Assembly (NCBI RefSeq): GCF_000015765.1 | Contig: NC_008942.1 | Location: forward strand, 186,001 to 250,000 | From: Methanocorpusculum labreanum Z | Lineage (GTDB): Archaea; Halobacteriota; Methanomicrobia; Methanomicrobiales; Methanocorpusculaceae | DNA: 64,000 nucleotides | Direction of reading: 5' to 3' | Shown: piece after piece, positions 25,278 through 39,488 of the stretch | Position numbering within the stretch: position 1 is the first letter of the stretch | Layout of the letters: each line of letters opens with the position of its first letter | Notes under the pieces: generated by a model | Database searches by the model: none | The model's input: the letters and a program-made list of their open reading frames with translations, nothing else | What the model was told of the DNA's origin: nothing | Position numbers and translations under genes: made by a program

Positions 25278-26108
25278 ATGTTTATCCTCGCTTCACCCTG
25301 TGTTTTGCATGAAAATCTTCGTGCTGACGGCATTACAACCGATGAAGACCGTGAGGTTTTCATAAAATGCAGAAAAAGATGCGAGGAGTTCGGTATCGAT
25401 ATTGTTCCGCTGCCGTGTCCGGAGACGCTGTATCTTGGAACTCCCCGATCCCCCGGGTCATTTACCGAAAGGCTTGATACCCCGGAGTTTTCGGCTCTTC
25501 TCGATCGATTGGAGGAGGAGGTAAGGGACCTGATTTCGGTGAAAGGCGAGCCTATCTGCATTCTTGGCGTAAACTCATCTCCGACCTGCGGGGTAACAAC
25601 CACATATTTCACGAATGAGAAGTCTGTTGGTCCGGGTGTTTTTCTGAAAAGATTCTCCCACTTCTGCGCGGTTGACGCTCGTGTTTTTGCAAAATACCGG
25701 ATATATCTGGCATCGCCGCTTTTTTCGGAGGCCGAACGCCGGTATAATGCCTATCTTGTTGAAGTTCTTCGACAGAATTTCTTTTTCGTGTATCTCCCTC
25801 AGGAGGCCGCTGACACCGAAGACGGTAGAGAGGGATCCCGTGAACAAATTATCTATGAAAAAAATCTATCTGAACTGAAAAGAGCGGATATCGTTGTCGG
25901 GGTCATCGACGGATCGGATGCGGATTCTGGGACCGCCTGGGAAATGGGATATGCATTTGCATCCGGAAAACGGGTGATAGCTCTCAGGACGGATTTCCGG
26001 AAGTTCAGCGGGAATGAACGGGTGAATCTCATGCTCGAGATGGAGGCAGAGGTCGTTTTGAACGTCGACGAACTCGTTTCGGCACTGGGCTTTCATCCGC
26101 TTCCCTGA
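25278..26108 (+). CDS. TudS-like desulfidase domain fused to nucleoside 2-deoxyribosyltransferase domain
   Basis: 276 residues in two parts. Residues 1-120 resemble DUF523/TudS (thiouracil desulfurase-type) proteins, with cysteines in LASPCVLHENLRADG, PCPETLYLG and SSPTCGVT at the three positions that hold a [4Fe-4S] cluster in TudS. Residues 135-276 are a nucleoside 2-deoxyribosyltransferase fold: YLASPLFSEAERRYN, LKRADIVVGVIDGSDADSGTAWEMGYAFASGK, with the catalytic Glu in the last block. The pair suggests processing of a thiolated or modified nucleobase; this is inference. Monocistronic. Confidence 0.72.
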   Translation: MFILASPCVLHENLRADGITTDEDREVFIKCRKRCEEFGIDIVPLPCPETLYLGTPRSPGSFTERLDTPEFSALLDRLEEEVRDLISVKGEPICILGVNSSPTCGVTTTYFTNEKSVGPGVFLKRFSHFCAVDARVFAKYRIYLASPLFSEAERRYNAYLVEVLRQNFFFVYLPQEAADTEDGREGSREQIIYEKNLSELKRADIVVGVIDGSDADSGTAWEMGYAFASGKRVIALRTDFRKFSGNERVNLMLEMEAEVVLNVDELVSALGFHPLP

Positions 26109-26134: not shown

Positions 26135-26980
26135 TTACACGGCCAGTCTTCGTGCGACGGCCAGGTTATCTTTATCGGTCCTGATTTCGTCAGAGGGGGT
26201 CTCCATAATGAAGGCGCAGTGCGAGATCTTTGGAAACGTCAGGACATCATGAATGGTCTCTTCTCCAAGATATCCAAGCCCCAGATGTTCGTGTCGGTCC
26301 AGATGGGAACCGACCCCGCCTTTCATGTCGTTGAGATGAATGACTTTGAGTCGATCAAGGCTTCCTGCCTCATCATTGAACCAGCCGAACACGGTCTCCG
26401 CCCCGTGACCTTTCAAATCGTAGCCGGCTGCTGCTGCATGACAGGTGTCAAAACAAAATCCGACCCTTCGTTCGTTTGAAAGAGCGTCGGAGATCACGCC
26501 TATGTCCGTGAATGTTCCCCCAACGGTATTTTTTTCGTTCGCGGTGTTTTCGAGCAGGATCATTGTCTCGCCTTCCGACTCATCCAGCGCCTGACCGATC
26601 GCCGCGATGACTTTCTCCTGACCTTTTTTATGTCCGTCTTCTTTTCCGTGATGACCCAGATGGGTCACGAGATAGGGGATTTTGAGCTGATCGCAGCGGT
26701 CAAGCTCTTCGGTCATGGTGAAAATCGATCTTGCATATATCTCGGGTTTTTCTGCTGCCGGATTTGGAAGGTAGGGCATGTGATCAACGACCGGCCCGAT
26801 TCCCGAAATGTTTAATGCATCGATAAACGCTTCTGCAATCGAGGGTTCAATCGGTTTGGCAGCCCAGACACGCGGACTCCGCGTAAATATCTGGAAGGTG
26901 TCGCATCCCGCTTCCTGGGCCCTGGACACGGCAAGAGGTAAGGAGCCGGCGATCGATACGTGGAATCCGAGTTTAATCAT
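26135..26980 (-). CDS. nfo: Endonuclease IV (AP endonuclease)
   Basis: 281 residues, TIM-barrel Zn enzyme that cuts DNA 5' to abasic sites. Metal ligands are visible in LGFHVSIAGSL, YLVTHLGHHGKE, ILLENTANEKN, GFCFDTCHAAAAGYD, VIHLNDMKGGVGSHLDRHEHLG and the C-terminal METPSDE. Complete. Overlaps the upstream gene of unknown function by 8 bases, forming a three-gene unit in which the other two have no known role but may share a repair context. Confidence 0.95.
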   Translation of the reverse strand: MIKLGFHVSIAGSLPLAVSRAQEAGCDTFQIFTRSPRVWAAKPIEPSIAEAFIDALNISGIGPVVDHMPYLPNPAAEKPEIYARSIFTMTEELDRCDQLKIPYLVTHLGHHGKEDGHKKGQEKVIAAIGQALDESEGETMILLENTANEKNTVGGTFTDIGVISDALSNERRVGFCFDTCHAAAAGYDLKGHGAETVFGWFNDEAGSLDRLKVIHLNDMKGGVGSHLDRHEHLGLGYLGEETIHDVLTFPKISHCAFIMETPSDEIRTDKDNLAVARRLAV

Positions 26981-27779
26981 TTCGTTCTCTCCATTCTTTT
27001 ATCATTGCAAAAAGTGCATCGGCAATGGTTTTCGGGTTTGCTCCCCAGTGAACCACTGCGCCGAAGTATCCGTTGTACATGCCTATCCCGCTGTTTTCCG
27101 CACGGCAGCACCGTGCGATGAACGGCTCTCTGTTTACCTGCGTGATCGGGCAGATGTCTTCGAACTCGAAATCGTAACCGTAATTTTCGTGACAAATCTG
27201 TCTGCCGGTCCGGCAACAGGCGATCCGTGATCCTTTCGGCGGGATGTCCCGGTCCAGCGTATGGGGAAATCCGCCGGCTCTGCAGGGATAGACTTCCGTG
27301 TCGAGTTTACTGATGTCTCTGATGTGGTGATCGAAGACGATGTTTTCGGTTTCGAAAAAGCCGAGCGATTCTAGCCCGTTGAGCGTATCGACAAGGGAAG
27401 GATTCGGCGGCGTGATGTCGAAGACGTGGACCGTTTCAAACGTTGAAAGGTCGGGATCACACACGAATGTCATGTGATCGTCCTCTTTTCCAAAGACGGT
27501 GCATCGTTTCTTTGTCGAAAGCGCTTTTCTGACCAGACCTGCCCGGTCATGGGTATTTACCTCTTCTTTCCATACAACGGTATCCTCTGGTCCTGCGACG
27601 AGTTCCACCGATTCGATCTCCCGCATGAGTCCAATGCCGTCTTTCGGCAGTATTTTCAGCACCTCAACTCCGTCCAGCGTCGGATGGATCAGATATTCTG
27701 TGAGGAAATACACCTTCTCGCCGAGGGGAGATGTGGCGGCATTGCCCACGAATTTACACTCTTTTGGGAATATCATCAT
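26973..27779 (-). CDS. Cys-rich conserved hypothetical protein
   Basis: 268 residues, family not recognised. The first 100 residues are a mixed alpha/beta region. Residues 185-250 hold many cysteines and conserved-looking residues (RIACCRTGRQICHENYG, EDICPITQVNREPFIARCC, NGYFGAVVHWGANP), which could bind metal or an Fe-S cluster. Residues about 140-155 include VFDHHIRDIS. No signal peptide. Overlaps nfo by 8 bases and the small upstream gene by 4, so translation of all three is coupled. Confidence 0.65.
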   Translation of the reverse strand: MMIFPKECKFVGNAATSPLGEKVYFLTEYLIHPTLDGVEVLKILPKDGIGLMREIESVELVAGPEDTVVWKEEVNTHDRAGLVRKALSTKKRCTVFGKEDDHMTFVCDPDLSTFETVHVFDITPPNPSLVDTLNGLESLGFFETENIVFDHHIRDISKLDTEVYPCRAGGFPHTLDRDIPPKGSRIACCRTGRQICHENYGYDFEFEDICPITQVNREPFIARCCRAENSGIGMYNGYFGAVVHWGANPKTIADALFAMIKEWRERND

Positions 27780-28162: not shown

Positions 28163-29050
28163 ATGACTGAAGAACCCTGTATAATCGACAATCCCTATTC
28201 CATATCCTATCCTGAGATTCTTGCACTCGCATCAGAAGACGGCAAAACAGTTGAACTTATTGAGAGGTTCGACTGTATGGGCGGGGCGATGTGGGTGAAA
28301 AATCATTATGCGAAAAGTCCGCTCGTCAAAAGTTCCCGCATCGTTTCCAATACCCAGCGGTTTATGCTTGATACCGGCGATGTCAGCCTCAAGCTTGAAG
28401 GGTCATACTTTCCTGCAGGAATTTGCGGAGCGGAAGTAACCGAGTCGGAAATCGCCGTCTCCTACCTCGGCCTTGGAGGCGGAGGCGTCGGGGCAAGTAT
28501 CTGCCGTGCGACCGCCGGAGGTGTCTTGCGTCATACCTGTGATGTCTGCGGAGGGGGTAAAGTCGCCGGCTCGACCATTTATCTGCCGAGATATACTAGG
28601 GTCATCATTGGTCTCGACGACACGGATACGCCGGAGGAGGGGGCGACTTGGACGCTTGCCCACAACATATCGAAGGCTGTTGAAACACCCAGCTCCCGTT
28701 ATCTCTCCCACACGATAACCCAGCTCTTTCCTGTTCCCTACCGGACCAAAAACTGTGTCGCTCTCGCCTGCGAATTTGCCACTATGGAACCCGAGAAACT
28801 CATCGACCGGTTCGAAGCTCTGGTCAGGAAATACACGCTTTCGGATGAGACCGGTCTTTGTGCCTACATCGGTTTTGATCCGTCAGCGATCATGCCGTAT
28901 GCAAGAAAAGTCAAAGCCGGTGAGGTGACCTTGGATGATTTTGCGGCAGTTCGCCCTCATCTGGATGTACGGATCGAAGGACGGGGTATCATCGGAGCAG
29001 CGGCGGCGATACCCTTTTACACGAATTACGCCGAGGCCCTTTTGATATGA
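28163..29050 (+). CDS. Methanogenesis marker protein 11
   Basis: 295 residues. An N-terminal half with VELIERFDCMGGAMWVKNHY and the glycine-rich YLGLGGGGVGASICRATAGG is followed by a domain starting VIIGLDDTDTPEEGATWTLA. That DDTD block resembles the ATP-binding start of TiaS-type kinase-like domains. The C-terminal GRGIIGAAAAI closes the domain. The family is used as a methanogen marker, but its function is unknown. It starts a run of seven overlapping genes ending in aksF; stop and next start overlap as ATGA. The context suggests a role in coenzyme B synthesis or its regulation (inference). A paralogue lies at 35-36 kb. Confidence 0.8.
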   Translation: MTEEPCIIDNPYSISYPEILALASEDGKTVELIERFDCMGGAMWVKNHYAKSPLVKSSRIVSNTQRFMLDTGDVSLKLEGSYFPAGICGAEVTESEIAVSYLGLGGGGVGASICRATAGGVLRHTCDVCGGGKVAGSTIYLPRYTRVIIGLDDTDTPEEGATWTLAHNISKAVETPSSRYLSHTITQLFPVPYRTKNCVALACEFATMEPEKLIDRFEALVRKYTLSDETGLCAYIGFDPSAIMPYARKVKAGEVTLDDFAAVRPHLDVRIEGRGIIGAAAAIPFYTNYAEALLI

Positions 29051-30078
29051 CCAGCGTCTCGAAGACTGCAGATACACATAAGCTTGGCCGAATCAAACAC
29101 CAGCTTTTAGCCGTCGGTTCGGCAAAAGTGACCGGCATCCCGCTTCCTGCTTCGCTCTCGTCCACCGCAGGTCCGGGTTCCGGCAAAGGAGGGTCGGTGT
29201 TTTTCTCCGATGGGGTTTCCCGGATACGTCTGACGCTGGATGAGGGGAGCCCAGTTCACATCGTAAATTTTGGGGACTCTGCGGTTCTTACGTTCGATGG
29301 GCCGAAAGGTCCGGTTTCCGTTGACGGTTTTGTGGAAAAAACCGGCTGTCACTGCCCAAAGCAGGCGTATATCACGATAAATGAGGGCTGCATTTTTTCA
29401 TGCCGGTATTGTAATGTTCCAAACCAGGAAAAACACACAAAAACCCCGGATGAAATCGTTTCTCTGATTACGGATGCATGTTCCCGGGATACGATTGAGT
29501 GCATATCTCTTACGAGCGGTGTTGTCGGGACGATGAAGGAGGAGGACGAACGTCTCTTTACGATTCTCGAAAAGATCCGCGTTTTTGATCTGCCGATCGG
29601 CGTCTCGGTTTATCCGACCCCCGGTCTTTCCAAAAAACTCTTCGAGCTCGGCGTTTCTGAGGTGAAGTTCAATCTTGAGACCGCGACTGAAAAACTGTTT
29701 GCCGAGATGTGTCCTGGACTTGATCGGGATGTCTTGTGGGATTCTCTCAATGAAGCGGTCGGAATTTTTGGAAAAAACCGTGTCTATACCAACATCATTC
29801 TGGGTCTCGGCGAATCCAAAGCCGAGATGAAACGGTGCATCATGCAGTGTCTTGAAAACGGGATCATTCCGATCATCCGTCCGTTGACTCCCTCGTCAGA
29901 ACTTTCTGATTACTCGCGTCCTTCGGCGGCCGACATTCTCGGCATTGCTGAATTCCTGAAAAGTGAACTTCTGCGTTTCGGCCTTGACCCGTCAGAGGCC
30001 AGGACGATGTGCGCAAAGTGTATGGGCTGTGATGTTGCTCCAATGACGGATTTACGTGCGGAGGAGGTGACGGCATGA
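29047..30078 (+). CDS. Radical SAM protein with extra cysteine motifs (coenzyme B operon)
   Basis: 343 residues. The radical SAM cluster motif is C115-x3-C119-x2-C122 (CIFSCRYC), followed by the usual barrel with TSGVVGTM and VGVSVYPTPGLS-type strands. Additional cysteines occur just before it (C101, C103) and in a C-terminal triad C322-x2-C325-x2-C328, possibly an auxiliary Fe-S cluster. Residues 1-95 form a separate beta-rich domain. Family unassigned by me. Overlaps MMP11 and the ThDP enzyme gene by 4 bases each. Because aksADEF follow, it is a candidate for a coenzyme B step such as thiol introduction; that is inference only. Confidence 0.8.
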   Translation: MTSVSKTADTHKLGRIKHQLLAVGSAKVTGIPLPASLSSTAGPGSGKGGSVFFSDGVSRIRLTLDEGSPVHIVNFGDSAVLTFDGPKGPVSVDGFVEKTGCHCPKQAYITINEGCIFSCRYCNVPNQEKHTKTPDEIVSLITDACSRDTIECISLTSGVVGTMKEEDERLFTILEKIRVFDLPIGVSVYPTPGLSKKLFELGVSEVKFNLETATEKLFAEMCPGLDRDVLWDSLNEAVGIFGKNRVYTNIILGLGESKAEMKRCIMQCLENGIIPIIRPLTPSSELSDYSRPSAADILGIAEFLKSELLRFGLDPSEARTMCAKCMGCDVAPMTDLRAEEVTA

Positions 30079-31202
30079 AGGCGGAAGATGGATTTGCCTC
30101 GGCAGTTTTAGAAGCGGCGGATGCTTGTTACGCAGTTCCCGGCTATCCGGTCACGGATCTTGCAGAAAAATGTGATGCCGAGTACACGGTCAATGAAAAA
30201 ATTGCTCTCGAGTATGCTCTTGGCATGTCTCTTTCCGGGAAGAGAGCTGTGGTCATCGTCAAAAATGCCGGCATGAATACCCTTGCCGATCCCCTGGTCT
30301 CAGCAACCTATCAGGGACTTAAGGCAGGTGTCGTGATTATTGCAGGAGACGATACCGAGGTTCGCGGATCCCAGACCCGGCAGGATTCAAGAATATACGG
30401 TGAGGTTGCCTCGGTCCCGGTCCTTGAACCAGCGGCAGATGAACTCTGCTTTTCAGTTGAAGCGGCCATGCAGAGTTCGGAAACCTACTCGAGGGTTGCG
30501 ATCATCCGGGTCACTCCGGCAGTTTTGGATGCCAAAATATCGGATGTTTCCCTTCCAAAACGAAGAAACGGATACGGGATACTCTTCCCGGATGATCTGA
30601 CGATGAGAGGGAAATGCGAATACGCAGAGAACATCACTGCCGTTATGAAAAGTGACATGATCCGTGAAAAGATCGTCCCCGAGACGTTCGCGTCCCGGGG
30701 TCATTACCGAACGGTCTGCAGAAACTGTCCGTATAAACCGTTGTTTTCTTTCCTGAAAAACACGCTCTCTCAGAATAATACTGCCGCGATCTGCGATACC
30801 GGCTGTTCGCTTCTCTCCAAGAATCCGCCGTTTTCCTATTCTCTTGCGAACTACGGACTCGGTTCTTCTCCGGCGGTAGCTTTGACGAGCACGAAGATTG
30901 CCCTCATGGGTGATTATGCGGTTTTGCACTCGGGGCTGAATGCCCTCATCGATATTTACGAAAAGCACCGCTCTCTGTTCTGTATTATTTTGAAAAACAG
31001 AAAACTGGGCATGACCGGCGGCCAAGACTGCCCGGATATTCTGCCCTATCTGGCCCCGTTTACTCCCACGGTCGTTTCGGCTGATGATCCTCGTCTTGCA
31101 GAGCTGATTGAAAAAGGAATCAATGAAAAAACCGGCCTTGGAATTCTGGTCGTTGAAGGGGAATGCCCCTCTGGAGAAAATCATGAAACCATTGAATGTT
31201 GA
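30075..31202 (+). CDS. IorA-like ThDP-dependent enzyme lacking ferredoxin domain; candidate 2-oxosuberate decarboxylase
   Basis: 375 residues. The N-terminal pyrimidine-binding domain (YTVNEKIALEYALG, probable catalytic Glu41) and the NTLADPLVSATYQG block look like indolepyruvate oxidoreductase alpha subunit. The ThDP domain has GD at 279-280 and N308 in KNRKLGMTGGQD, a GD-x27-N cofactor motif. IorA is normally about 600 residues with C-terminal ferredoxin domains; these are missing and no iorB lies in the window. That suggests a non-oxidative decarboxylase. It overlaps aksA by 20 bases. Coenzyme B synthesis needs a 2-oxosuberate decarboxylase, so this is a strong context candidate. Not demonstrated. 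Confidence 0.75.
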   Translation: MKAEDGFASAVLEAADACYAVPGYPVTDLAEKCDAEYTVNEKIALEYALGMSLSGKRAVVIVKNAGMNTLADPLVSATYQGLKAGVVIIAGDDTEVRGSQTRQDSRIYGEVASVPVLEPAADELCFSVEAAMQSSETYSRVAIIRVTPAVLDAKISDVSLPKRRNGYGILFPDDLTMRGKCEYAENITAVMKSDMIREKIVPETFASRGHYRTVCRNCPYKPLFSFLKNTLSQNNTAAICDTGCSLLSKNPPFSYSLANYGLGSSPAVALTSTKIALMGDYAVLHSGLNALIDIYEKHRSLFCIILKNRKLGMTGGQDCPDILPYLAPFTPTVVSADDPRLAELIEKGINEKTGLGILVVEGECPSGENHETIEC

Positions 31203-32349
31203 AATATGCGATGTAACGCTCAGGGATGGTGAACAGACGCCTGGGGTGTCTTTTACCTGCGAAGAAAAACAGGATATCGCCCAGCGCCTTTCCGATATCG
31301 GCATCGATATCATCGAAGCAGGGTTTCCCAGCGTATCCGAATACGAAAAACGCAGCGTGCGTTCCATCGTCGAGATGGATCTGCCGTCAGATATCTGCTG
31401 TTTATCTCGCTGTGTCCAAAGCGATATCGACGCAGCGATAGACTGCGGCGTCGATCTTGTCAGTCTGTTTTTCGCGACATCGGATCTGCATCTCCGTATA
31501 AAATACAAGAAGACCCGGGAAGAGATGCTTGATCTCGCTCTTGGCATGCTGGATTATGCTCTTGATCACGGAATTAAGGTTCGATTCTCTGCAGAGGATG
31601 CGTCGAGAACAGATACGGCATTTTTGAAAGAGATGTATGCGAAAGGAGCTGACCGGGGAGCCTCCTACAGCAGTTATGCCGATACGGTCGGCTGTATGAC
31701 GCCTCTTTCGATGTACGAGACCGTACGTGTACTGTCCACCTGGCTGAAAAACCCTCTGTGTGTTCACTGTCACAATGACATGGGTTTTGCGAGTGCCAAC
31801 ACGTTTACCGCAGCCCAGGCCGGGGCATTTCAGCTTCACACGACCGTTAACGGAATCGGCGAGCGTTGCGGGAACGCTTCTCTTGAAGAAGTTCTCGTCG
31901 CACTCAGAATGCAGGGGGGCGTCGATCGGTATGATCTCTCTGCTCTTCAGACTCTTTCGAGAACTGTGGAAACCTATTCCGGTATCAAAATCGCAAAGAC
32001 AAAACCTGTTGTGGGCGAACATGCCTTCTGTCATGAGAGCGGGATCCACATCGCGGCTTTGATTCAGGACAGAAATACCTACGAGTATTATCCGCCTGAG
32101 ATGGTCGGGGCCGAGCAGAAGTTCATTCTCGGCAAACATACCGGAAGAAAAGGACTCGAGTATATTCTGACGACCCTTGGATACAACCCGGTCCCAGGCG
32201 AGGTCGATGTAATTCTTGAGCGGATCAAATCGATCAGCGAGACAAAGCAGAGCATCACTCATGATGTTCTTCTCTCGGTAATTTCCGAGACAAGGCAGGA
32301 GACTGAATTGAAAAAGACATCGGGCTCTGATAAAGCCAGGACGGGATGA
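31183..32349 (+). CDS. aksA: (R)-homocitrate synthase family, AksA
   Basis: 388 residues from the ATG at 31183 (MKPLNVEICDVTLRDGEQ), preceded by GGAG; a longer open frame would run back through the ThDP gene. DRE-TIM metallolyase: DVTLRDGEQTPGVSF, metal-binding VHCHNDMGFASAN, GERCGNASLEE, and a C-terminal GKHTGRKGLEYIL segment. It condenses 2-oxoglutarate with acetyl-CoA and extends to longer homologues. The family also contains isopropylmalate and citramalate synthases; AksA is chosen because of the downstream homoaconitase-type subunit and the shortened C-terminus without a leucine-binding regulatory domain. Overlaps aksD by 4 bases. Confidence 0.82.
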   Translation: MKPLNVEICDVTLRDGEQTPGVSFTCEEKQDIAQRLSDIGIDIIEAGFPSVSEYEKRSVRSIVEMDLPSDICCLSRCVQSDIDAAIDCGVDLVSLFFATSDLHLRIKYKKTREEMLDLALGMLDYALDHGIKVRFSAEDASRTDTAFLKEMYAKGADRGASYSSYADTVGCMTPLSMYETVRVLSTWLKNPLCVHCHNDMGFASANTFTAAQAGAFQLHTTVNGIGERCGNASLEEVLVALRMQGGVDRYDLSALQTLSRTVETYSGIKIAKTKPVVGEHAFCHESGIHIAALIQDRNTYEYYPPEMVGAEQKFILGKHTGRKGLEYILTTLGYNPVPGEVDVILERIKSISETKQSITHDVLLSVISETRQETELKKTSGSDKARTG

Positions 32350-33599
32350 AGATGGCAGACACACTTTCCGAACGGATTCTCGGCTCGGCCGAAGGTACGT
32401 ATGTCGACCGGATGGTTGATCGGGCATTTGCCCACGACGGGACCGGTGCCCAGGCACTGGTCGCATTCGAAAATTTCCGGATCCAAAACAAGTCCGTTGT
32501 CAATCCTGAAAAATTATCTATAATATATGATCACATCTCGCCGGCGAACAACTCGGTTACGGCCGATCTTCAGGGAGATCTTCGGAAGTTTTCCCGACAG
32601 AACGGGATGCATTTCCACGAGGTCGGCTGCGGGATCTGTCATCAGATAATGAGCGAAGGAGTCTGCCTACCGGGTGAGATCGTTGTCGGGGCGGATTCGC
32701 ATTCCTGTACTCTCGGGGCACTCGGCGCATTTTCAACCGGTGTCGGAGCAACCGATATGGCGGGGATCTGGGCGACCGGCGGGACCTGGTTTAGAGTTCC
32801 CGAATCTATTAGTATAGTGCTGTCCGGCAAACTTTCCGGTCATACCGAGCCGAAGGATGTCGCACTATCTTATGTAAAGGCACTTGGGATGGACGGCGGG
32901 ACCTACAAAGCTCTGGAGTTTATCGGTGACGGAGCCGCCGGCATGCCGGTCGAAGGAAGACTGACGTTATCTAACATGGCCGTCGAGACCGGGGCAAAGA
33001 CCGGATTATTCTATGCTGATGCGTTGACCCGCGAACATTTGATAACCTACGGAGCGGACGAGAAAACAATTTCTCTGCAGAAACCCGAAGACTGCAGTTA
33101 TGAATCCGAGATTTACCTTGATCTTGACGATATTGAACCGCTTCTTGCCATACCTCACCGGGTCGATAACGCAGTACCCGTTACAGAGTATTCGGGCACC
33201 CAGATCGATCAGGTATTTATGGGTACCTGTACAAACGGACGGTTTGAGGATCTCAAACGGTTCGCTGAAATCGTCAGAGGTAAAAAAGTCGCCGTCAGGA
33301 CGATCGTTACGCCTGCTTCGAAGGATGCATATGCGAAGGCTCTGTCGACTGGTGTCCTGTCCGACATACTTGAGGCGGGCTGCGTAATCTGTCCGCCCGG
33401 CTGCGGCCCCTGTCTTGGGGCACATATGGGTGTCCTTGGGGGAGGCGAGGTGGGTCTGTCCACAGCGAACCGGAATTTCAGGAATCGGATGGGGGTTGGT
33501 GCCGAGTATTATCTCTGTTCTCCGTCGACGGCTGCTGTTAGCGCTCTTTGCGGCGAGATCAGGTCGCCGGATGAATGGAAGGGAGGTTTGAACCGATGA
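32346..33599 (+). CDS. aksD: Homoaconitase large subunit AksD
   Basis: 417 residues, aconitase superfamily, LeuC/AksD type. Signatures: VVGADSHSCTLGALG, GVGATDMAGIWATG and the three cluster cysteines in FMGTCTNGRFEDL and CVICPPGCGPCLG. Catalyses dehydration and rehydration of homocitrate and its longer homologues with AksE. Sequence alone does not separate it from LeuC; the small subunit does. The ATG at 32346 overlaps the aksA stop; an in-frame ATG two codons later is possible. Overlaps aksE by 4 bases. Confidence 0.85.
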   Translation: MKMADTLSERILGSAEGTYVDRMVDRAFAHDGTGAQALVAFENFRIQNKSVVNPEKLSIIYDHISPANNSVTADLQGDLRKFSRQNGMHFHEVGCGICHQIMSEGVCLPGEIVVGADSHSCTLGALGAFSTGVGATDMAGIWATGGTWFRVPESISIVLSGKLSGHTEPKDVALSYVKALGMDGGTYKALEFIGDGAAGMPVEGRLTLSNMAVETGAKTGLFYADALTREHLITYGADEKTISLQKPEDCSYESEIYLDLDDIEPLLAIPHRVDNAVPVTEYSGTQIDQVFMGTCTNGRFEDLKRFAEIVRGKKVAVRTIVTPASKDAYAKALSTGVLSDILEAGCVICPPGCGPCLGAHMGVLGGGEVGLSTANRNFRNRMGVGAEYYLCSPSTAAVSALCGEIRSPDEWKGGLNR

Positions 33600-34072
33600 T
33601 CATATCTGGACATGCCGTTGTGATCGGGGAGGATGTGGATACCGACATGATCATCGCCGGTCGTTATCTTAGGACGATCGACCGGTCGGTGTGGGTGGAG
33701 CATGCCTTCGAAGATTATGATAAGAGTATTGCCGGACGACTGAACGGCGCCGTGTTGGTTGCCGGGAAAAATATCGGCTGCGGATCATCCCGCGAGCAGG
33801 CTGCTGCTGCTCTCAAGGAAGCGGGGGTACGTGCCGTCGTCGCTCCGTCTTTTGCGAGGATCTTTTTCCGAAACTGTGTTAATCTTGGATTGTATGTCTT
33901 TGAGGCGGATGTTGTGTGCGAAAATGGTGATATCATTTCCTTTGACACCGATGATTCGTATGTCAAAACATCAAATGCCGTTTATCAGGCAAAGCCGCTC
34001 TCGAACCGTATGAAGGAGATACTGTCTGCTGGTGGGCTGAATGCCTATCTCTCCATGCAGGGTGAACCATGA
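33596..34072 (+). CDS. aksE: Homoaconitase small subunit AksE (YLRT loop)
   Basis: 158 residues from the ATG at 33596, which overlaps the aksD stop. The upstream extension in frame is rejected because VVIGEDVDTDMI should lie near the N-terminus. The substrate-specificity loop reads Y24-L25-R26-T27. In Methanocaldococcus the homoaconitase small subunit has YLRT, with Arg26 reading the longer distal carboxylate, whereas isopropylmalate isomerase has YLVY. GCGSSREQAAAAL completes the swivelling domain. This motif is the main evidence that the operon makes 2-oxosuberate for coenzyme B. Confidence 0.9.
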   Translation: MIISGHAVVIGEDVDTDMIIAGRYLRTIDRSVWVEHAFEDYDKSIAGRLNGAVLVAGKNIGCGSSREQAAAALKEAGVRAVVAPSFARIFFRNCVNLGLYVFEADVVCENGDIISFDTDDSYVKTSNAVYQAKPLSNRMKEILSAGGLNAYLSMQGEP

Positions 34073-35079
34073 GCCTTCGTATCGCTGTCGTGAACGGGGA
34101 TGGTATCGGGCCTGAGGTTATCCCTGAAGCTCAAAAGATTCTTGAGCATTTTCTTCCCGATGCGGATTTTTATGAGGTCGAACTCGGCCTTGCCAAATGG
34201 GAGAGAAGCGGGTCCGCCTGTTCCCCGGATGATATTCGTGAACTGAAAGGGGCAGACGCGATTTTATTCGGGGCCGTGACAACCCCTCCTGACCCGAATT
34301 ACCGGAGCGTTCTTTTGCAGATCAGACACGAACTCGATCTGTATGCAAATCTTCGTCCCATCAGACCCCTTCGTTCATCGGGCCAAGGGTCACCCGCCGA
34401 TATGATGATCGTCCGGGAGAATACCGAGGGACTTTATTCAGGCATCGAGGAGATTGGTGAGGAGAGGTCGACGACCCTCCGTGTGGTGACGAAGGCAGGT
34501 TCCAAACGAATTGCAGAGAAAGCCTGCTCTCTTATTTTGGAACGAAATTCTAAAAGTCCGCTCGTTATCGGATACAAAGGGAACGTGCTTAAATCGGATC
34601 TGCTTTTCAGGGATACCTGCAGCGAAGTCGCTGCGTCATTTGGGATACAGACAAAAGCGGTGTTTATCGATGCTTTGTGTCTTGATGTTTTGCAGCATCC
34701 GAAAAATTATGATGTGATCGTTACGACAAACATGTTTGGTGATATCTTAAGCGATGTCTGCGGGTATCTCACAGGAGGACTTGGCATGCTTCCGAGTGCG
34801 AACATAGGGGATACGCATGCATTTTTCGAGCCGGTCCACGGGAGTGCTCCGGATATTGCCGGTAAGGGTATAGCAAATCCAGTTGCTGCGATCCGAAGTG
34901 CGGCAATGATGCTTGAGTATTTCGGGATGAAACGTGAAGCTTGCCTCGTCGAAGAATCGATTGCCGATTTGATTAACAGCGGTGTATGCACGCCCGATCT
35001 TGGAGGCTGTGAATCAACTTCATCGTTCGGCAACCGTTTGCTTGCAGCCGTCTGTAAAAAAGAAGAGAGACAAATATAA
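34069..35079 (+). CDS. aksF: Homoisocitrate dehydrogenase AksF
   Basis: 336 residues, beta-decarboxylating dehydrogenase. NGDGIGPEVIPEA, the catalytic region MIVRENTEGLYSGIEE, IGYKGNVLKSD (Lys) and the metal aspartates in TTNMFGDILSDVCG are present, with FEPVHGSAPDIAGKG for NAD binding. It oxidises and decarboxylates homoisocitrate and homologues to the next 2-oxo acid. Overlaps aksE by 4 bases; last gene of the operon, ending four bases from the convergent MMP11-like gene. LeuB is the alternative on sequence alone, rejected by the aksE motif. Confidence 0.87.
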   Translation: MSLRIAVVNGDGIGPEVIPEAQKILEHFLPDADFYEVELGLAKWERSGSACSPDDIRELKGADAILFGAVTTPPDPNYRSVLLQIRHELDLYANLRPIRPLRSSGQGSPADMMIVRENTEGLYSGIEEIGEERSTTLRVVTKAGSKRIAEKACSLILERNSKSPLVIGYKGNVLKSDLLFRDTCSEVAASFGIQTKAVFIDALCLDVLQHPKNYDVIVTTNMFGDILSDVCGYLTGGLGMLPSANIGDTHAFFEPVHGSAPDIAGKGIANPVAAIRSAAMMLEYFGMKREACLVEESIADLINSGVCTPDLGGCESTSSFGNRLLAAVCKKEERQI

Positions 35080-35083
35080 TTTT

Positions 35084-36040
35084 TTATGGTGTCTCGCCGT
35101 AGAGACCAGCGGCCTCTACACCACCATCTGCCCAGAGAAGTGCTCCAAGAGCTCCGATCCTTCCTTTTCCGTTTGCACTGTCGATAAAGGTGATGCCGAG
35201 TTTTTCTGCCTCGGTTACTGCCTCTTCGCGTGTCAGCAGTTCGGTCTTTACTCTCTTTGCATATGCTGAGTCCGGAAGACGGATGCCGGCAAAATAGCAG
35301 ATGCCTGTTGTTTTACTCATCGTTTTTTCTTCGATGAACGCTTTGACGAATGCAATAAGCTCGGCCTTTTTTTCCGGCTTTACTGCGAAGGTGATCACTG
35401 AACCTGTACAGTTGGTGGTCTTTTCAGGGGCTTTCGGGTTGAGCTGGATGATCCGCATTCCAAGGAAGGTGGCTCCGTCGATAGAACAGGCTTCGCCGCA
35501 TTTCAACGCAAGGACCCAGGTTGCTCCTCCTTCTTTCGTATCGGTATCATCTATTCCGAAAGTGATCTTCTCATATTTCGGCAGAATAATAGTGCTTCTG
35601 CAGATTCGTGCACCGCCAACTTTCAGATCTTCTTCACTCGCATATTCTGTTCTGAGGACACCGGGAGCCTGAGATAAACAGGCAGCGACCCCTACTCCTG
35701 CTCCTGCTGCTCCTGCCCAGGAGGTTCGTACTTCATTTCCCTCTACAACAACTGCTTCAAGTGCTTGTCCCCCGAGTTCCGTATCCGAGGGTCCAAAGCT
35801 GATGGGATACGAGCCGATTTTTGCGATCATCGTCATTGAGGTTCCTTCGGTTTTTGCAGAGATGAGTGCCCCTTTCGCTCTTCTCCGGTTCATATGATCC
35901 CATTCGATAGGGCCTCTTGCATGACATTGTTCATGTATTTCGGCAATGCCGTTTTTTTCATCGGTCATTACAAGGAGTCGGTGACAGAACATCGGTCCAA
36001 ATTTTTCTTTTATCTGATCTGGGGTTAATGTGATTGTCAT
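35084..36040 (-). CDS. Methanogenesis marker protein 11 paralogue
   Basis: 318 residues from the ATG at 36040 (MTITLTPDQIKEKFG); the 24 codons upstream are not a plausible start. Same architecture as the protein at 28.2 kb: a glycine-rich AGAAGAGVGVAACLSQ block, then ITFGIDDTDTKEGGATWVLALKCGEA, and a C-terminal GRIGALGALLWADGG. Function unknown. Convergent with aksF with a 4-base gap. The leader holds GTTAACGAAAAT, as in front of the other copy. Which of the two is the canonical marker protein I cannot decide firmly; the first fits slightly better. Confidence 0.75.
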   Translation of the reverse strand: MTITLTPDQIKEKFGPMFCHRLLVMTDEKNGIAEIHEQCHARGPIEWDHMNRRRAKGALISAKTEGTSMTMIAKIGSYPISFGPSDTELGGQALEAVVVEGNEVRTSWAGAAGAGVGVAACLSQAPGVLRTEYASEEDLKVGGARICRSTIILPKYEKITFGIDDTDTKEGGATWVLALKCGEACSIDGATFLGMRIIQLNPKAPEKTTNCTGSVITFAVKPEKKAELIAFVKAFIEEKTMSKTTGICYFAGIRLPDSAYAKRVKTELLTREEAVTEAEKLGITFIDSANGKGRIGALGALLWADGGVEAAGLYGETP

Positions 36041-36499
36041 ATTTTTTGATACCAGAATTTTCGTTAACAGAAAGATCGGTCGTATGAGTATAAGATATGT
36101 TCGATGTGACACGCCTTATAAATCACCCACTGATATTAACAAGCATTGGATAAACAAAGATGGTTGATATCGCTTTGGCTTTAATCATATTCAGAAATAT
36201 GTTGTCCGTTGAAAAAACGCGCATAAATTGGCCTTTAACTCAAAAGAAGCTTGAATAATTGATTGTTTCCTTAACCTCCTTTAATTTGAAGGGATATACG
36301 CGGACGTTATTTTGATCAATATTTGTGGGTTATTTCATTCATACACCATTAACAATACGTTATAAGTAAATTATTATATTTTATTGCTGGAATTTTAAGC
36401 TGAAATTGAGCTTCTTTCTATTGAGAACCTTTATCTATCATCTTACTCAAACCATATCAGTAATTGATTTCGATCGATATAGGCTGGTGCATATAAGCA
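36041..36499. other. AT-rich divergent intergenic region upstream of the fwd-hdr cluster
   Basis: 459 bases without a convincing gene. On the minus side: the GTTAACGAAAAT element (36057-36068) and TATA-like sequences (TTTATAAG near 36116-36123, CTTATACTC near 36087) for the MMP11 paralogue. On the plus side: a TATA-like run near 36366-36382 that would give a leader of about 95 bases for fwdG. A 32-codon frame (36160-36258) has no ribosome-binding site. Confidence 0.55.
36057..36068 (-). promoter_or_regulatory. GTTAACGAAAAT element, second copy
   Basis: Minus-strand 12-mer ending 16 bases before the ATG of the MMP11 paralogue. It matches 11 of 12 bases of the element in the leader of the MMP11-aks operon (28124-28135). 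Confidence 0.45.
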
Positions 36500-36781
36500 A
36501 TGGCATTTGCAATGCATATTAACATGGAGCGATGTACCGGTTGTAACAATTGTGTGGTCGCATGTCCCGTGAACGCACTCGAGCTCAACACAGTAGATCC
36601 GGCAACGACCGATAAGATCTACCTCGTCGTTGACGGCAAGGCTAAAATCCTTGACGTGAAACACGAGCTCTGTGCGGGCTGCGGTGTGTGTGTAGAAGCA
36701 TGTCCGTACAACGTTATTCGACTGGTAGGACCGCAGGAAGGAGCCACTGCAGCAAAAGCTGTAGTTGGAGTCCACCACTAA
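36500..36781 (+). CDS. fwdG: FwdG-type 2[4Fe-4S] ferredoxin subunit
   Basis: 93 residues with two ferredoxin motifs: CTGCNNCVVACP near 12-23 and CAGCGVCVEACP near 55-66. Small electron-carrier subunit of formylmethanofuran dehydrogenase, feeding low-potential electrons to the FwdB active site. The assignment to FwdG rather than a free ferredoxin comes from fwdF immediately downstream (22-base gap) and the fwd genes later in the cluster. First gene of the cluster, after a long AT-rich leader. Confidence 0.8.
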   Translation: MAFAMHINMERCTGCNNCVVACPVNALELNTVDPATTDKIYLVVDGKAKILDVKHELCAGCGVCVEACPYNVIRLVGPQEGATAAKAVVGVHH

Positions 36782-36803
36782 AAAAATTGGAGAGGATTAA
36801 TAC

Positions 36804-37967
36804 ATGGCAATGAGCACAATGTATCCAAAATTCTCCACGAAGACTGATGGAGACAACGTCATTATGGAGCAGAAGCTCCTCGCGAAAGTTTCCCACCTCG
36901 TGTTGAAAAAGAATGTATGTACCGGGTGTGGTATTTGTTCTGAAGCATGTCCAAAAGAGGCAATTGTCCTTGGACTTGTAGGAGCAGTCCGCCGTGGTGC
37001 AGTGACTACCGAAGCACCGATCTCAGTAGATCCGGCAAAGTGTTCTTACTGTGGTGTGTGTGTTATTTTATGTCCGTTCAATGCTCTTGGATTAGAGATT
37101 GACGGTGAACCGAGTCTGCCTATTCTTGAACAGGAAGGTTTCCCGCAGTATGATATTACTGCTGAGATCGACGAGTCCAAGTGTAACCGCTGTACTGTCT
37201 GCCATGAGGTCTGTCCAAACGATGCAATCATCCGTGATGTTCCGACCTTTGAAGGTGTGGATGCTGCAGATGGTAAGAAGCGTCAGGCAGCCCTTACCGG
37301 AAAGACAACCTTCGTGGTTGACAAAGAAAAGTGTACCGTCTGTGGTATCTGTGCGGCACTCTGCCCGGCACTTTCCGTAGACCGTGTTCCATTCAACGCT
37401 GAGACGGTTAAATCCCTCGGTGACATTGTCTGGGATGAAAAACTCTGTAACGCTTGTCAGGTCTGTGCCCTTGCATGCCCAACTGAGGCAATCAAGGTTG
37501 ACCGCGTTGTTGAGTCCAACAAACTTCCAGGCAAAGTAACCATTGATATTGACAACTGCTGCACCTGTGCATGGTGTGAGAACACCTGCCCAACCGAAGC
37601 AGTCACCATCAAGAAGTTCTTCGATGGAGAAATCAGCTTCAACGCAGAAAAATGCCCGGCTGGCTGTTCGACCTGTATCGAAGTGTGCCCGTGCAAAGCA
37701 ATTTATCTGCCCTCCCCTGCCTCTGCTGTAGGTATGAAGAAGGAGAAGGAAGCAGTTATCGCTGTCAGCAAGGAACTCTGTATTTACTGTGGTGCCTGTG
37801 TCAATGCATGCCCGTCAGAAGATGTTATCACTCTTAAGAGAACCGCGATCAGAGTCAAAGGACCCGAGACCGATCTCTTCAAGAAGATCGCAGACAAACT
37901 CTACGTCCCCAGAACCTCCAAAGTACGTGAGGCATCAGGTCACGTTGAAGTAAAAGAACTGGAGTGA
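36804..37967 (+). CDS. fwdF: FwdF polyferredoxin
   Basis: 387 residues containing eight C-x2-C-x2-C-x3-C type motifs spread over the whole length (for example CTGCGICSEACP, CSYCGVCVILCP, CNRCTVCHEVCP, CTVCGICAALCP, CNACQVCALACP, CTCAWCENTCP, a variant CPAGCSTCIEVCP and CIYCGACVNACP). That is enough for eight [4Fe-4S] clusters, as in the known FwdF. It forms the electron wire between electron donors (here probably HdrA) and the FwdB site. Good ribosome-binding site (GGAGAGG). Six bases before hdrC. Confidence 0.9.
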   Translation: MAMSTMYPKFSTKTDGDNVIMEQKLLAKVSHLVLKKNVCTGCGICSEACPKEAIVLGLVGAVRRGAVTTEAPISVDPAKCSYCGVCVILCPFNALGLEIDGEPSLPILEQEGFPQYDITAEIDESKCNRCTVCHEVCPNDAIIRDVPTFEGVDAADGKKRQAALTGKTTFVVDKEKCTVCGICAALCPALSVDRVPFNAETVKSLGDIVWDEKLCNACQVCALACPTEAIKVDRVVESNKLPGKVTIDIDNCCTCAWCENTCPTEAVTIKKFFDGEISFNAEKCPAGCSTCIEVCPCKAIYLPSPASAVGMKKEKEAVIAVSKELCIYCGACVNACPSEDVITLKRTAIRVKGPETDLFKKIADKLYVPRTSKVREASGHVEVKELE

Positions 37968-37973
37968 ACCAAT

Positions 37974-38558
37974 ATGACTAGTGCAAAAGCATACAAAGAT
38001 GCTGCCCTCGCAGCACGCCTCTCTGACCGGTACTACCGTCCAAAGCAGGACAGCGACCCGTCGTTCACTGCCGAAGTTGAAAAGATCGGAGGAACCGAAG
38101 CTCACATCTGTTACCAATGCGGAACCTGTACAGGATCCTGCCCATCAGGTGCAAGAAGCACTTACCGGATCAGAAATTTCATGCGCAGAGTCAATCTCGG
38201 TATGAGAGATGTTTGTCTCAACGACCCGGATCTCTGGCTGTGTACAACCTGTTATACCTGTTCTGACCGCTGCCCAAGAAATCTCATCCCGACCGATGTT
38301 ATCATGGCAATGAGAAATATTGCAGCAAGACAGGGCATCGTTCCTAAAAACTTCCTTGCAACGGTGAACTTCATCTACAACACTGGTCACGGTGTTCCAA
38401 ACAGTGATGCAAACCGTGCAGCCCGTGTCAAGTTAGGTCTTGAAGCCGAGCCGGAAACCACCTGCAAATATCCCGAATATATTCCGGCAATCCGGAAAAT
38501 CCTCGAGGCATATGGAACCAAGCAGCTCGCAGATAAAGTCCTTGCGGAGGGTCAGTAA
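37974..38558 (+). CDS. hdrC: Heterodisulfide reductase subunit C
   Basis: 194 residues. Two [4Fe-4S] motifs: CYQCGTCTGSCPSG near 44-57 and CTTCYTCSDRCPRN near 86-99. HdrC passes electrons from HdrA to the HdrB active site in the soluble HdrABC complex. Soluble type, with no membrane anchor like HdrE partners. It ends three bases before hdrB and sits between fwdF and hdrB. Confidence 0.93.
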   Translation: MTSAKAYKDAALAARLSDRYYRPKQDSDPSFTAEVEKIGGTEAHICYQCGTCTGSCPSGARSTYRIRNFMRRVNLGMRDVCLNDPDLWLCTTCYTCSDRCPRNLIPTDVIMAMRNIAARQGIVPKNFLATVNFIYNTGHGVPNSDANRAARVKLGLEAEPETTCKYPEYIPAIRKILEAYGTKQLADKVLAEGQ

Positions 38559-38560
38559 TT

Positions 38561-39487
38561 ATGTCACACGAGACGCACAAATACGCATTCTTCCTCGGAT
38601 GCATTGCTCCGAACCGGTATCCCGGTATCGAGGCATCTGCTATCCGTACCGGTAAGAATCTCGGTATTGAGCTTGTTCCGTTAAAGGGAGCATCTTGCTG
38701 TCCGGCACCTGGAGCATTCGGGTCCATTGACCTCAATGTCTGGTATGCAATGGCTGCAAGAAACCTCATCTTAGCAGAACAGATGAATATGGATATCGCC
38801 CTCATTTGTAACGGCTGTTACAAATCCATCTGGGAAGTCAACCACAAACTGAAGCACAACGATGAACTCCGTGACTCAGTCAACGAAGTCTTAAAGGAAG
38901 TTGATATGGAGTACAAAGGTACTACCAACGTCTACCACCTCGCTGAGCTTTACTACAATGATGATGTTTGCGGTCTTGACAAACTCAGAGACAGCGTCAA
39001 CACACCCCTCACCGGCGTGAAGGTTGCCTGCCACTACGGCTGCCACTTACTCAAACCTGCAAAGGACCGTGAGTTTGCCGGAGGAGCTATCGGCGATTCC
39101 GAACACCCGATGTGGTTCGAAGAACTCGTGGACGCTCTTGGTGCAGAGGCAGTTGAATACCGCAATAAGATGCAGTGCTGTGGTGCAGGCGGAGGAGTCC
39201 GCGGATATGATATCGCTCACGCTCTTGATATCACCAACGAAAAGCTCACCAATATGGCTGCTGTCGGTGCTGATGCAATTGTCGACACATGTCCGTTCTG
39301 CCAGCTGCAGTTCGACCGCGGTCAGTTTGAAATTGGCCAGAAGTTTGGTATTGAGTGGAGTATTCCGGTTCTTCACTTCTGTGAAATGCTCGGTCTTGCA
39401 CAGGGCATGACTCCGAATGAACTTGGTCTTGACCTTCACCAGATTTCTTGTCAGCCATTCCTTGACAAACTGAAGGGAGGACAGTAA
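38561..39487 (+). CDS. hdrB: Heterodisulfide reductase subunit B
   Basis: 308 residues. Two CCG domains: the first with GASCCPAPGAFG near 45 and the second with MQCCGAGGGVRG near 205, plus partner cysteines (LICNGCYKS, CHYGCHLL, DTCPFCQL). They hold the two noncubane [4Fe-4S] clusters that reduce the CoM-S-S-CoB heterodisulfide. Begins with HKYAFFLGCIAPNRYPGIE, typical for HdrB. Cytosolic. Ends one base before hdrA. Confidence 0.95.
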   Translation: MSHETHKYAFFLGCIAPNRYPGIEASAIRTGKNLGIELVPLKGASCCPAPGAFGSIDLNVWYAMAARNLILAEQMNMDIALICNGCYKSIWEVNHKLKHNDELRDSVNEVLKEVDMEYKGTTNVYHLAELYYNDDVCGLDKLRDSVNTPLTGVKVACHYGCHLLKPAKDREFAGGAIGDSEHPMWFEELVDALGAEAVEYRNKMQCCGAGGGVRGYDIAHALDITNEKLTNMAAVGADAIVDTCPFCQLQFDRGQFEIGQKFGIEWSIPVLHFCEMLGLAQGMTPNELGLDLHQISCQPFLDKLKGGQ

Positions 39488-39488
39488 T

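Follow-up and report, generated by a model that had tools for sequence, protein, structure and literature searches.

An aks operon of Methanocorpusculum labreanum with three candidate genes for missing steps of coenzyme B biosynthesis

The window analyzed here is a stretch of 64,000 nucleotides from the genome of Methanocorpusculum labreanum Z. According to the ORF list, it carries seven plus-strand ORFs between 28163 and 35079, in the order MMP11a, a radical SAM gene (rSAM), a ThDP enzyme gene (ThDP), aksA, aksD, aksE and aksF (Table 1). Every junction overlaps: MMP11a/rSAM by 4, rSAM/ThDP by 4, ThDP/aksA by 20, and aksA/aksD, aksD/aksE and aksE/aksF by 4 bases each. The 20-base overlap is counted from an ATG at 31183, read from the sequence as the aksA start, while the aksE start (ATG 33596) was chosen from the 4-base overlap and from homologues. 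An earlier sequence-only reading had described a seven-gene operon with overlaps of 4-20 bases, which held; it had overlooked a second MMP11 paralogue (MMP11b) and a DUF7714/XcbA-type gene, which flank the block here and are operon members elsewhere. The true start of MMP11b probably lies about 25 codons further in than the ORF start. The block encoding ferredoxin, polyferredoxin and Hdr-like subunits adjoins the aks operon in many relatives too, as seen in their gene neighbourhoods.

Table 1. Features of the aks locus of M. labreanum (positions within the window)
Feature	Position	Strand	Assignment and family evidence
DUF7714/XcbA-family protein	26973..27779	-	PF24830 287 bits; NF052538 54 bits, below cut-off
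MMP11a	28163..29050	+	methanogenesis marker protein 11; TIGR03280
rSAM	29047..30078	+	radical SAM, lipoyl/biotin synthase-like kind; Radical_SAM domain
ThDP enzyme	30075..31202	+	IorA relative without ferredoxin domain; candidate 2-oxosuberate decarboxylase
aksA-type homocitrate-family synthase	31183..32349	+	HMGL-like; LEU1_arch family 430 bits
aksD-type (homo)aconitase large subunit	32346..33599	+	IPMI_arch 470 bits, above cut-off
aksE-type (homo)aconitase small subunit	33596..34072	+	LEUD_arch 149.7 bits, above cut-off
aksF-type (homo)isocitrate dehydrogenase	34069..35079	+	LEU3_arch 392 bits; AksF_Meth 302-312 bits, under AksF_Meth cut-offs
MMP11b, MMP11a paralogue	35084..36112	-	TIGR03280 211 bits, below cut-off
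ferredoxin, polyferredoxin, Hdr-like C, B, A subunits	36500..41528	+	ORFs; HdrABC names read from sequence

The operon is real and beyond chance, its order recurring over the Methanomicrobiales and outside them. The standard order in Methanomicrobiales is MMP11b-MMP11a-rSAM-ThDP-aksA-aksD-aksE-DUF7714-aksF, with MMP11a directly 5' of rSAM in 65 of the 66 scorable loci and ThDP directly 3' of rSAM in 59 of 68. Methanocella has a related cluster, MMP11a-(rSAM)-...-ThDP-aksADEF-DUF7714, the genome G390 has ThDP-aksA-aksD, and ThDP adjoins MMP11a in M. acetivorans, Methanotrichaceae-type and ANME-2-like (f31) genomes. The best 80 matches of the genome scan were all Methanomicrobiales. The proposal made from the sequence alone was to be refuted if the arrangement was unique to this genome, or if the three front genes were absent from most coenzyme B producers. 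As run, these checks gave no refutation and one partial exception: the arrangement is standard in Methanomicrobiales, with parts of it in Methanocella, Methanosarcina, Methanothrix-type and ANME-2-like genomes, and of the MCR-bearing genomes sampled across the phylum the majority carry the MMP11a, rSAM and ThDP genes, the exceptions being four deep MCR-bearing lineages (f10, f12, f15 and f18) that lack ThDP and mostly lack rSAM. Because of these lineages, ThDP and rSAM cannot be the sole enzymes for coenzyme B. Class I methanogens are excluded from the ThDP/rSAM comparison and were searched for MMP11 only.

Nearly all the methane made by living organisms comes from methyl-coenzyme M reductase (MCR), for which coenzyme B serves as electron donor; AksA, AksD, AksE and AksF build 2-oxosuberate. 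Their role in the M. labreanum operon was assigned by family membership. A separate leucine/citramalate gene set is present in the genome (C1:573637-579969), hence the leucine genes lie outside the operon; the orthologues of the operon copies are distinct from the Leu genes and are missing in the genome inferred to be that of the coenzyme B-requiring Methanomicrobium mobile. Alternatively, these genes could yield a different product (e.g. homocitrate for nitrogenase), in which case the operon would not serve coenzyme B at all. In favour of this, the families are common to these enzymes and LeuA, NifV and LysS, and AksA and AksF fall under the strict NCBIfam equivalog cut-offs; with the models NF040619, NF040626 and NF040615, the Aks proteins score 302-415 bits against cut-offs of 500-550; other methanogens may have been the basis of these models. 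We consider this alternative very unlikely, as the losses fit a coenzyme B-requiring methanogen, the leucine/citramalate genes exist separately, and M. petauri is without this set yet has a further homocitrate-type paralogue. That paralogue, a 51-52% AksA-like match, was considered as aksA and rejected, since it is another synthase of the homocitrate/isopropylmalate type and lies in no aks cluster.

The enzymes acting after 2-oxosuberate were given as unknown in 2023 and 2025 (PMC10384328, PMC12068725), in agreement with the statement of the sequence-only reading that these steps are unassigned, and no assigned 2-oxosuberate decarboxylase was found in the literature searched. The ThDP protein meets the criterion for a ThDP-dependent 2-oxo acid decarboxylase, a catalytic Glu with a GD...N cofactor motif: E41 is present in 99 of 99 sequences, and G279, D280 and N308 in 98 of 99 each. 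The family is closer to IorA than to any decarboxylase. With IorA (TIGR03336, IOR_alpha) it shares the PYR and PP domains, the catalytic Glu, the GD...N motif and four cysteines (C215, C218, C244 and C364, each found in 98-99 of the 99 sequences and common to the IorA of the same genome), which probably hold a proximal [4Fe-4S] cluster. Membership of IOR_alpha is not met, however (146 bits, cut-off 650.9); the homologues score 146-280 bits and the real IorA of M. labreanum 812. IorA has a C-terminal 2x[4Fe-4S] domain that is missing here, the long homologues ending at position 474 of the 595 of the profile. Unlike IorA, the gene is linked to aks and MMP11 and not to iorB; no IorB-type gene was noticed in the clusters compared, in which some unlabelled neighbours remain unidentified. 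An analogous step is known from the coenzyme M pathway, where the ThDP-dependent sulfopyruvate decarboxylase ComDE converts a 2-oxo acid to an aldehyde, the substrate of the subsequent thiolation; the ThDP protein has only 18% identity to ComDE, which lacks the four cysteines and is encoded, as a fused protein, elsewhere in the M. labreanum genome (L006).

We propose that the ThDP enzyme would follow the Aks enzymes and take the 2-oxo carboxyl group off 2-oxosuberate, a substrate that is inferred, and that 7-oxoheptanoate, formed by non-oxidative decarboxylation, would be its likeliest product. This route is favoured because, of the IorA domains, PYR and PP are kept and the ferredoxin domain is lost, and because the operon encodes no IorB. 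An oxidative route to pimeloyl-CoA is not excluded, because the four IorA cysteines are still there, and they speak against a plain non-oxidative decarboxylase. The ThDP protein could then be an oxidoreductase that relies on free ferredoxin and borrows an IorB-like subunit, its pimeloyl-CoA being later reduced or thiolated. This remains a less likely possibility, supported by the cysteines shared with IorA and not with sulfopyruvate decarboxylase and by the closeness of IorA to the family; against it stand the absence of a ferredoxin domain, the lack of any noticed IorB-type gene in the clusters and 7-oxoheptanoate being the published intermediate (PMC10384328). White's labelling work is reported to support 7-oxoheptanoate as an intermediate of the pathway.

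The Radical_SAM superfamily criterion is met by rSAM with a CxxxCxxC motif (C115, C119 and C122, invariant in 100 sequences). Together with a C-terminal CxxCxxC and two further cysteines, eight cysteines are invariant in the same sequences. Its closest solved sequences are lipoyl synthase, biotin synthase and RimO, and LipS2 (NF053743) is among the best subfamily matches without its cut-off being met (1.2e-17, 64 bits, cut-off 270). These sulfur-inserting enzymes (LipS2/LipA, biotin synthase, RimO) are thus among its closest sequence relatives and belong to the same fold class; like them, rSAM carries extra conserved cysteines, potential ligands of an auxiliary cluster. The fold search identified the general radical SAM class only, HydE, ThiH and MqnE fitting equally well, and rSAM stays far under the family cut-offs for lipoyl synthase, biotin synthase and RimO; its sulfur chemistry is inferred only. 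The idea that rSAM is restricted to Methanomicrobiales was discarded, homologues being found in Methanosarcinia at 38-43%; the operon forms make up their own clade, and a second copy in some Methanomicrobiales groups with the Methanosarcinia. In our proposal rSAM would work after the ThDP enzyme, most plausibly making the terminal thiol, on an inferred substrate.

A rival for this step, which we can neither prefer nor set aside, is that COG1900 proteins (MMP16 or L-ASST) make the coenzyme B thiol, rSAM having another coenzyme B-specific role or maturing a partner. COG1900 proteins convert aldehydes to thiols in coenzyme M and homocysteine synthesis, the same chemistry has been suggested for coenzyme B, and a double mutant was unobtainable even when coenzyme M and methionine were given (PMC12068725). 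Two COG1900 proteins are encoded in the M. labreanum genome, and an aldehyde-to-thiol step needs no radical SAM chemistry. This rival leaves the linkage of rSAM to aks and MMP11a, and their joint loss, unexplained.

MMP11a meets the curated cut-off of TIGR03280 (300.5 bits, cut-off 255.8), while MMP11b (210.8 bits) does not. The C-terminal half of MMP11a has the TCKD (ATP-dependent kinase) fold of TiaS, the tRNA(Ile2) agmatidine synthetase, with a TiaS_TCKD domain match; in the AF2 model (pLDDT 91) TiaS chains are the sole Foldseek matches at E<=0.001. The DDTD motif common to both proteins (residues 152-155), along with T162, is nearly invariant in 104 sequences. Only the TCKD part fits TiaS: the full-length TiaS model is not met (20-36 bits, cut-off 600), and no known match was obtained for the N-terminal half, the substrate of MMP11 being inferred to differ from that of TiaS. 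No function of MMP11 was found in the literature searched. We propose that MMP11a, also working after the ThDP enzyme, would activate 7-mercaptoheptanoate for the (phospho)threonine amide or phosphorylate threonine; these substrates are inferred. The domains, folds and conserved residues described bear out the chemistry types (ThDP, radical SAM and ATP-binding DDTD) that had been read for the three front genes, while which protein carries out which step is inferred.

The link to coenzyme B finds its strongest support in gene loss. Throughout Methanocorpusculum, ThDP is present exactly where an aksA orthologue is (nine genomes, absent from the rest), aksD agrees in the genomes tested, and the marker tree forces at least four separate changes in ThDP/aksA presence. 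Several host-associated species, including M. petauri, have lost ThDP and aks and kept MMP11a and rSAM; others have lost both. This nested order of loss places ThDP with the aks steps and MMP11a and rSAM later. In two further genomes (G114 and G116) the loss is an in situ deletion: MMP11a-rSAM-ThDP-aksA-aksD-aksE and aksF are missing, and MMP11b and DUF7714 remain, with the Hdr/Ftr and EndoIV flanks on either side intact. The set deleted in G114 corresponds exactly to the seven genes singled out by the sequence-only reading, the interleaved MMP11b and DUF7714 being spared. G114 is inferred to be M. mobile, a species dependent on branched-chain acids, indole and coenzyme B (PMC10658910); in line with these needs, LeuA/LeuC and TrpA are missing from G114 as well. 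To our knowledge, no other methanogen needs coenzyme B as a growth factor. A second COG1900 protein, assigned by its lower score to the MMP16 (CoM synthase) type, persists in G114, hence the losses look coenzyme B-specific. Three MAGs (G112, G149 and G151) were left out as loss evidence, their whole locus being missing and G149 lacking MCR as well, and G017, an apparent case of aksA without ThDP, was dismissed since its contig ends 9 bases beyond aksA. The co-loss with aks is thereby shown, including in situ in the presumed M. mobile, with the qualifier that some species without aks still hold MMP11a and rSAM.

Operon neighbours can be lost jointly without a common pathway. MMP11a, rSAM and ThDP could serve another methanogen process (e.g. 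MCR maturation) and have been lost with aks only as neighbours; the losses do fall in host-associated reduced genomes, and some aks-less genomes still hold MMP11a and rSAM. We regard this as unlikely: the deletions in G114 and G116 leave the interleaved DUF7714 and MMP11b, the linkage is found again, in varying gene arrangements, in several taxonomic orders, and G114, G026 and G032 keep MCR. Our preferred reading, to which we assign a probability of roughly 0.72, is that the operon covers most of coenzyme B biosynthesis, with the ThDP enzyme decarboxylating 2-oxosuberate and rSAM and MMP11a acting later; its chemistry, substrates and products are inferred. The original idea, that the three front genes are candidates for the unassigned steps, is supported to this extent. 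A bolder version, in which every unassigned reaction is encoded in the operon, is as a joint claim rather more doubtful than credible: an Fe-S ThDP decarboxylase, a thiol-making lipoyl synthase-like rSAM and a TiaS-like MMP11, a new kind of ATP-dependent ligase or kinase, joining the acid to (phospho)threonine, with M. petauri-type species living on an imported seven-carbon intermediate. The preferred reading singles out three genes as strong candidates for the missing steps and predicts the order in which they act, with natural knockouts available in the M. mobile-like and M. petauri-like genomes; each step is therefore testable by assay and feeding. If true, methanogenesis marker protein 11 would gain a function, and methane formation new targets for its inhibition.

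The two additional genes at the locus were rejected as coenzyme B-specific. DUF7714 is a distant relative of XcbA of bacterial coenzyme M synthesis (54-85 bits with NF052538, cut-off 150), and in most relatives its gene separates aksE from aksF; it is not coenzyme B-specific because the aks-less G114, G116 and G032 retain it. MMP11b, which heads the operon in most relatives, is likewise kept where aks is lost.

The seven ORFs of the operon, MMP11a (methanogenesis marker protein 11), rSAM (radical SAM protein), ThDP (IorA-like thiamine-diphosphate enzyme), aksA, aksD, aksE and aksF, sit where the sequence-only reading had placed them, with junction overlaps of 4, 4, 20, 4, 4 and 4 bases. The proposed gene identities also held in family searches: MMP11a matched TIGR03280, rSAM is a radical SAM protein, ThDP resembles IorA, and the four aks genes encode enzymes of the AksA, AksD, AksE and AksF types. 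The window is C1:186001-250000 (C1 being the contig) in a complete genome of 1,804,962 bases. The observation is confirmed and extended: the claim that the operon holds unassigned steps of coenzyme B synthesis is supported as to pathway membership, the individual reactions of the proteins being inferred. We consider it likely (probability about 0.72) that the operon encodes most of coenzyme B synthesis, with every substrate and product inferred.

Positions of the features discussed (plain ranges are window positions; L-numbers are extracted loci; G000 is the window's genome)
Feature	Position	Strand	Remark
Seven-gene operon	28163-35079	+	
MMP11b, second MMP11 paralogue	35084-36112	-	flanks operon
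MMP11b, extracted locus	L048:2537-3492		
DUF7714/XcbA-type gene	26973-27779	-	flanks operon
TudS/2-thiouracil desulfurase-like N-terminus, nucleoside deoxyribosyltransferase-like C-terminus	25278-26108	+	syntenic neighbour across genus
Small DDTD-motif protein, 234 aa	54604-55308	+	weak similarity to MMP11/TiaS kinase domain
Third MMP11-like paralogue, ~411 aa	G000:C1:454221-455051 (L189:4225-5052, -)		~100 bits
Aldehyde dehydrogenase beside operon site, M. mobile-like genome	L183:9413-10930; L050:1534-2934		
MMP11 and rSAM amid cobamide nucleotide-loop genes, Methanocella	L176:1392-7752		includes CobD (threonine-phosphate decarboxylase)

Genomes G114, G116 and G117 form a reduced-genome clade adjoining G113, G115 and G118 in a tree of the COG1900a marker. 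The relatives G113 and G115 have the order MMP11b-[MMP11a-rSAM-ThDP-aksA-aksD-aksE]-DUF7714-[aksF]-..., and the same site in G114 and G116 reads Hdr-Ftr-MMP11b-DUF7714-aldehyde dehydrogenase-EndoIV (Ftr named via a homologue). Exactly the seven genes singled out by the sequence-only reading are thus deleted, on both sides of the retained DUF7714 gene; since the flanks are intact and two assemblies agree, this absence is not an assembly gap. G114 keeps methyl-coenzyme M reductase (MCR) and two COG1900 (MMP16/L-ASST-type) proteins, which points to lost coenzyme B synthesis and not to lost methanogenesis or coenzyme M synthesis. No match to LeuA/CimA, LeuC or TrpA was found in G114, in line with the fact that M. 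mobile must be given branched-chain acids and indole; G114 is equated with M. mobile by inference and not from a name. The coenzyme B requirement of M. mobile was shown in 1991 (PMC10658910, table and reference list). Other Methanomicrobiaceae have similar-sized genes at the position of the aldehyde dehydrogenase.

In Methanocorpusculum, the same nine genomes carry both ThDP and the aksA orthologue, all others having neither, and aksD matches this distribution where it was sought. Three states occur: a single locus with all genes (the window's clade), a split over two loci (ThDP-aks at one and MMP11b-MMP11a-rSAM-DUF7714 at the other, in G023 and G027) and loss. Gene loss is nested: G020, G022, G026 (which we take to be M. 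petauri MG), G037, G040, G041 and G043 keep MMP11a and rSAM and lack ThDP and aksA, while G025, G030, G031, G032, G033 and G034 keep MMP11b and DUF7714 and lack all four. Several loss-state genomes are incomplete MAGs, the best ones (G026, G043, G031, G032) being 90-99% complete. At least four switches between aks-bearing and aks-less states are required on the COG1900a marker tree; because the genes are linked, their co-loss is partly non-independent. A second COG1900 protein (MMP16/ComF type) is also absent from the six genomes of the more advanced loss, and these could possibly require coenzyme M too; a single COG1900 copy was also seen in two aks-bearing genomes, G028 and G029.

We propose that AksA/D/E/F would generate 2-oxosuberate, that ThDP would decarboxylate it and that rSAM and MMP11a would act thereafter, an order inferred because the losses are nested; the division of the later steps among rSAM, MMP11a and the COG1900 proteins is undecided. 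Retention of MMP11a and rSAM in species without 2-oxosuberate synthesis and ThDP is expected if a later intermediate is imported. The medium used to isolate and grow M. petauri was BRN-RF10 (PMC10035134), taken from its name to contain rumen fluid. COG1900 proteins have been proposed for coenzyme B thiol formation in a pathway called unknown (PMC12068725), and the enzymes around 7-oxoheptanoate, 7-mercaptoheptanoate and 7-mercaptoheptanoylthreonine are given as unknown (PMC10384328).

The catalytic Glu of ThDP is conserved in 99 of 99 distinct homologues and the GD...N motif in 98, as are C215, C218 and C244 (99/99) and C364 (98/99). All four cysteines are present in IorA and missing from sulfopyruvate decarboxylase, whereas the ferredoxin domain of IorA is absent from ThDP; a genuine IorA, above the curated cut-off, is encoded elsewhere in the window's genome. 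This suggests, by inference from sequence and without activity data, that ThDP is an IorA-derived decarboxylase retaining a proximal iron-sulfur cluster. The closest sequence and structure relatives of rSAM include lipoyl synthase, biotin synthase, RimO and HydE, and its eight cysteines invariant across 100 sequences would suffice to bind both the SAM cluster and a second, auxiliary one. The MMP11a structure model is confident (pLDDT 91), and its sole Foldseek matches at E<=0.001 are chains of TiaS, over ~150 residues. TiaS phosphorylates a carbonyl oxygen of cytidine with ATP, and agmatine then displaces the phosphorylated oxygen. This chemistry would offer, by analogy, a reasonable parallel for MMP11a using ATP to form an amide or phosphoester.

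Gene order is conserved well beyond the genus. The usual Methanomicrobiales operon (20 neighbourhoods within the order) is MMP11b-MMP11a-rSAM-ThDP-aksA-aksD-aksE-DUF7714-aksF, often with an EndoIV-type gene 3' and an Hdr cluster close by. Among 68 further loci, those with a scorable rSAM from named genome records, MMP11a lies immediately 5' of rSAM in 65 of the 66 not ending there, and ThDP immediately 3' in 59. At four loci, those of M. petauri, Ca. M. faecipullorum, a Methanocalculaceae MAG and Ca. Methanorbis basalitermitum, DUF7714 directly follows rSAM at a site that has lost ThDP and aks; judging by names and PMC10035134, these carriers are host-associated. The Methanocella genome G247, which we take to be M. 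paludicola (PMC3146512), has cobD-cbiB-cobS-cobY-MMP11a-rSAM-cobT-ThDP-aksA-aksD-aksE-aksF-DUF7714, and G239 and G254 have a similar cluster; this cobD acts on threonine phosphate, a compound common to cobamide and coenzyme B synthesis. ThDP-aksA-aksD occurs in G390 and ThDP-aksA-aksD-aksE-aksF-DUF7714 in G232. ThDP immediately adjoins MMP11a in 13 genomes of families f8, f21 and f31, including G466 (taken to be M. acetivorans C2A). The Methanosarcinia-type genomes examined carry rSAM as a gene of its own (37-43% identity), and these copies form a sister clade to the operon rSAMs. Some Methanomicrobiales have a second rSAM (L157, L158, L159, L160) that clusters with the Methanosarcinia copies, suggesting transfer.

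In a sampled search of 80 chosen genomes, 51 had MCR. By our reading of the searches, ThDP and rSAM occur in most MCR-bearing members of families f7, f8, f14, f21, f27, f31 and f32, yet the sampled MCR-bearing genomes of f10, f12, f15 and f18 have no ThDP and mostly no rSAM, and f28 fits neither group clearly; the ThDP and rSAM distribution does not cover class I methanogens. Both genes are absent from most MCR-less genomes sampled (f9 scores are weak, at IorA level); f23 and f24 gave intermediate ThDP scores. An MMP11 match was found in M. jannaschii.

In most relatives the DUF7714/XcbA-family gene belongs to the operon, placed between aksE and aksF, but the aks-less genomes checked retain it as well; M. 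acetivorans has one and M. jannaschii none. It may conceivably serve coenzyme M. MMP11b is likewise kept in aks-less genomes, so its function differs from that of MMP11a; in G042 it is broken by stops or a frameshift. The third MMP11-like paralogue is present in nearly all Methanomicrobiales searched with TIGR03280, aks-less ones included.
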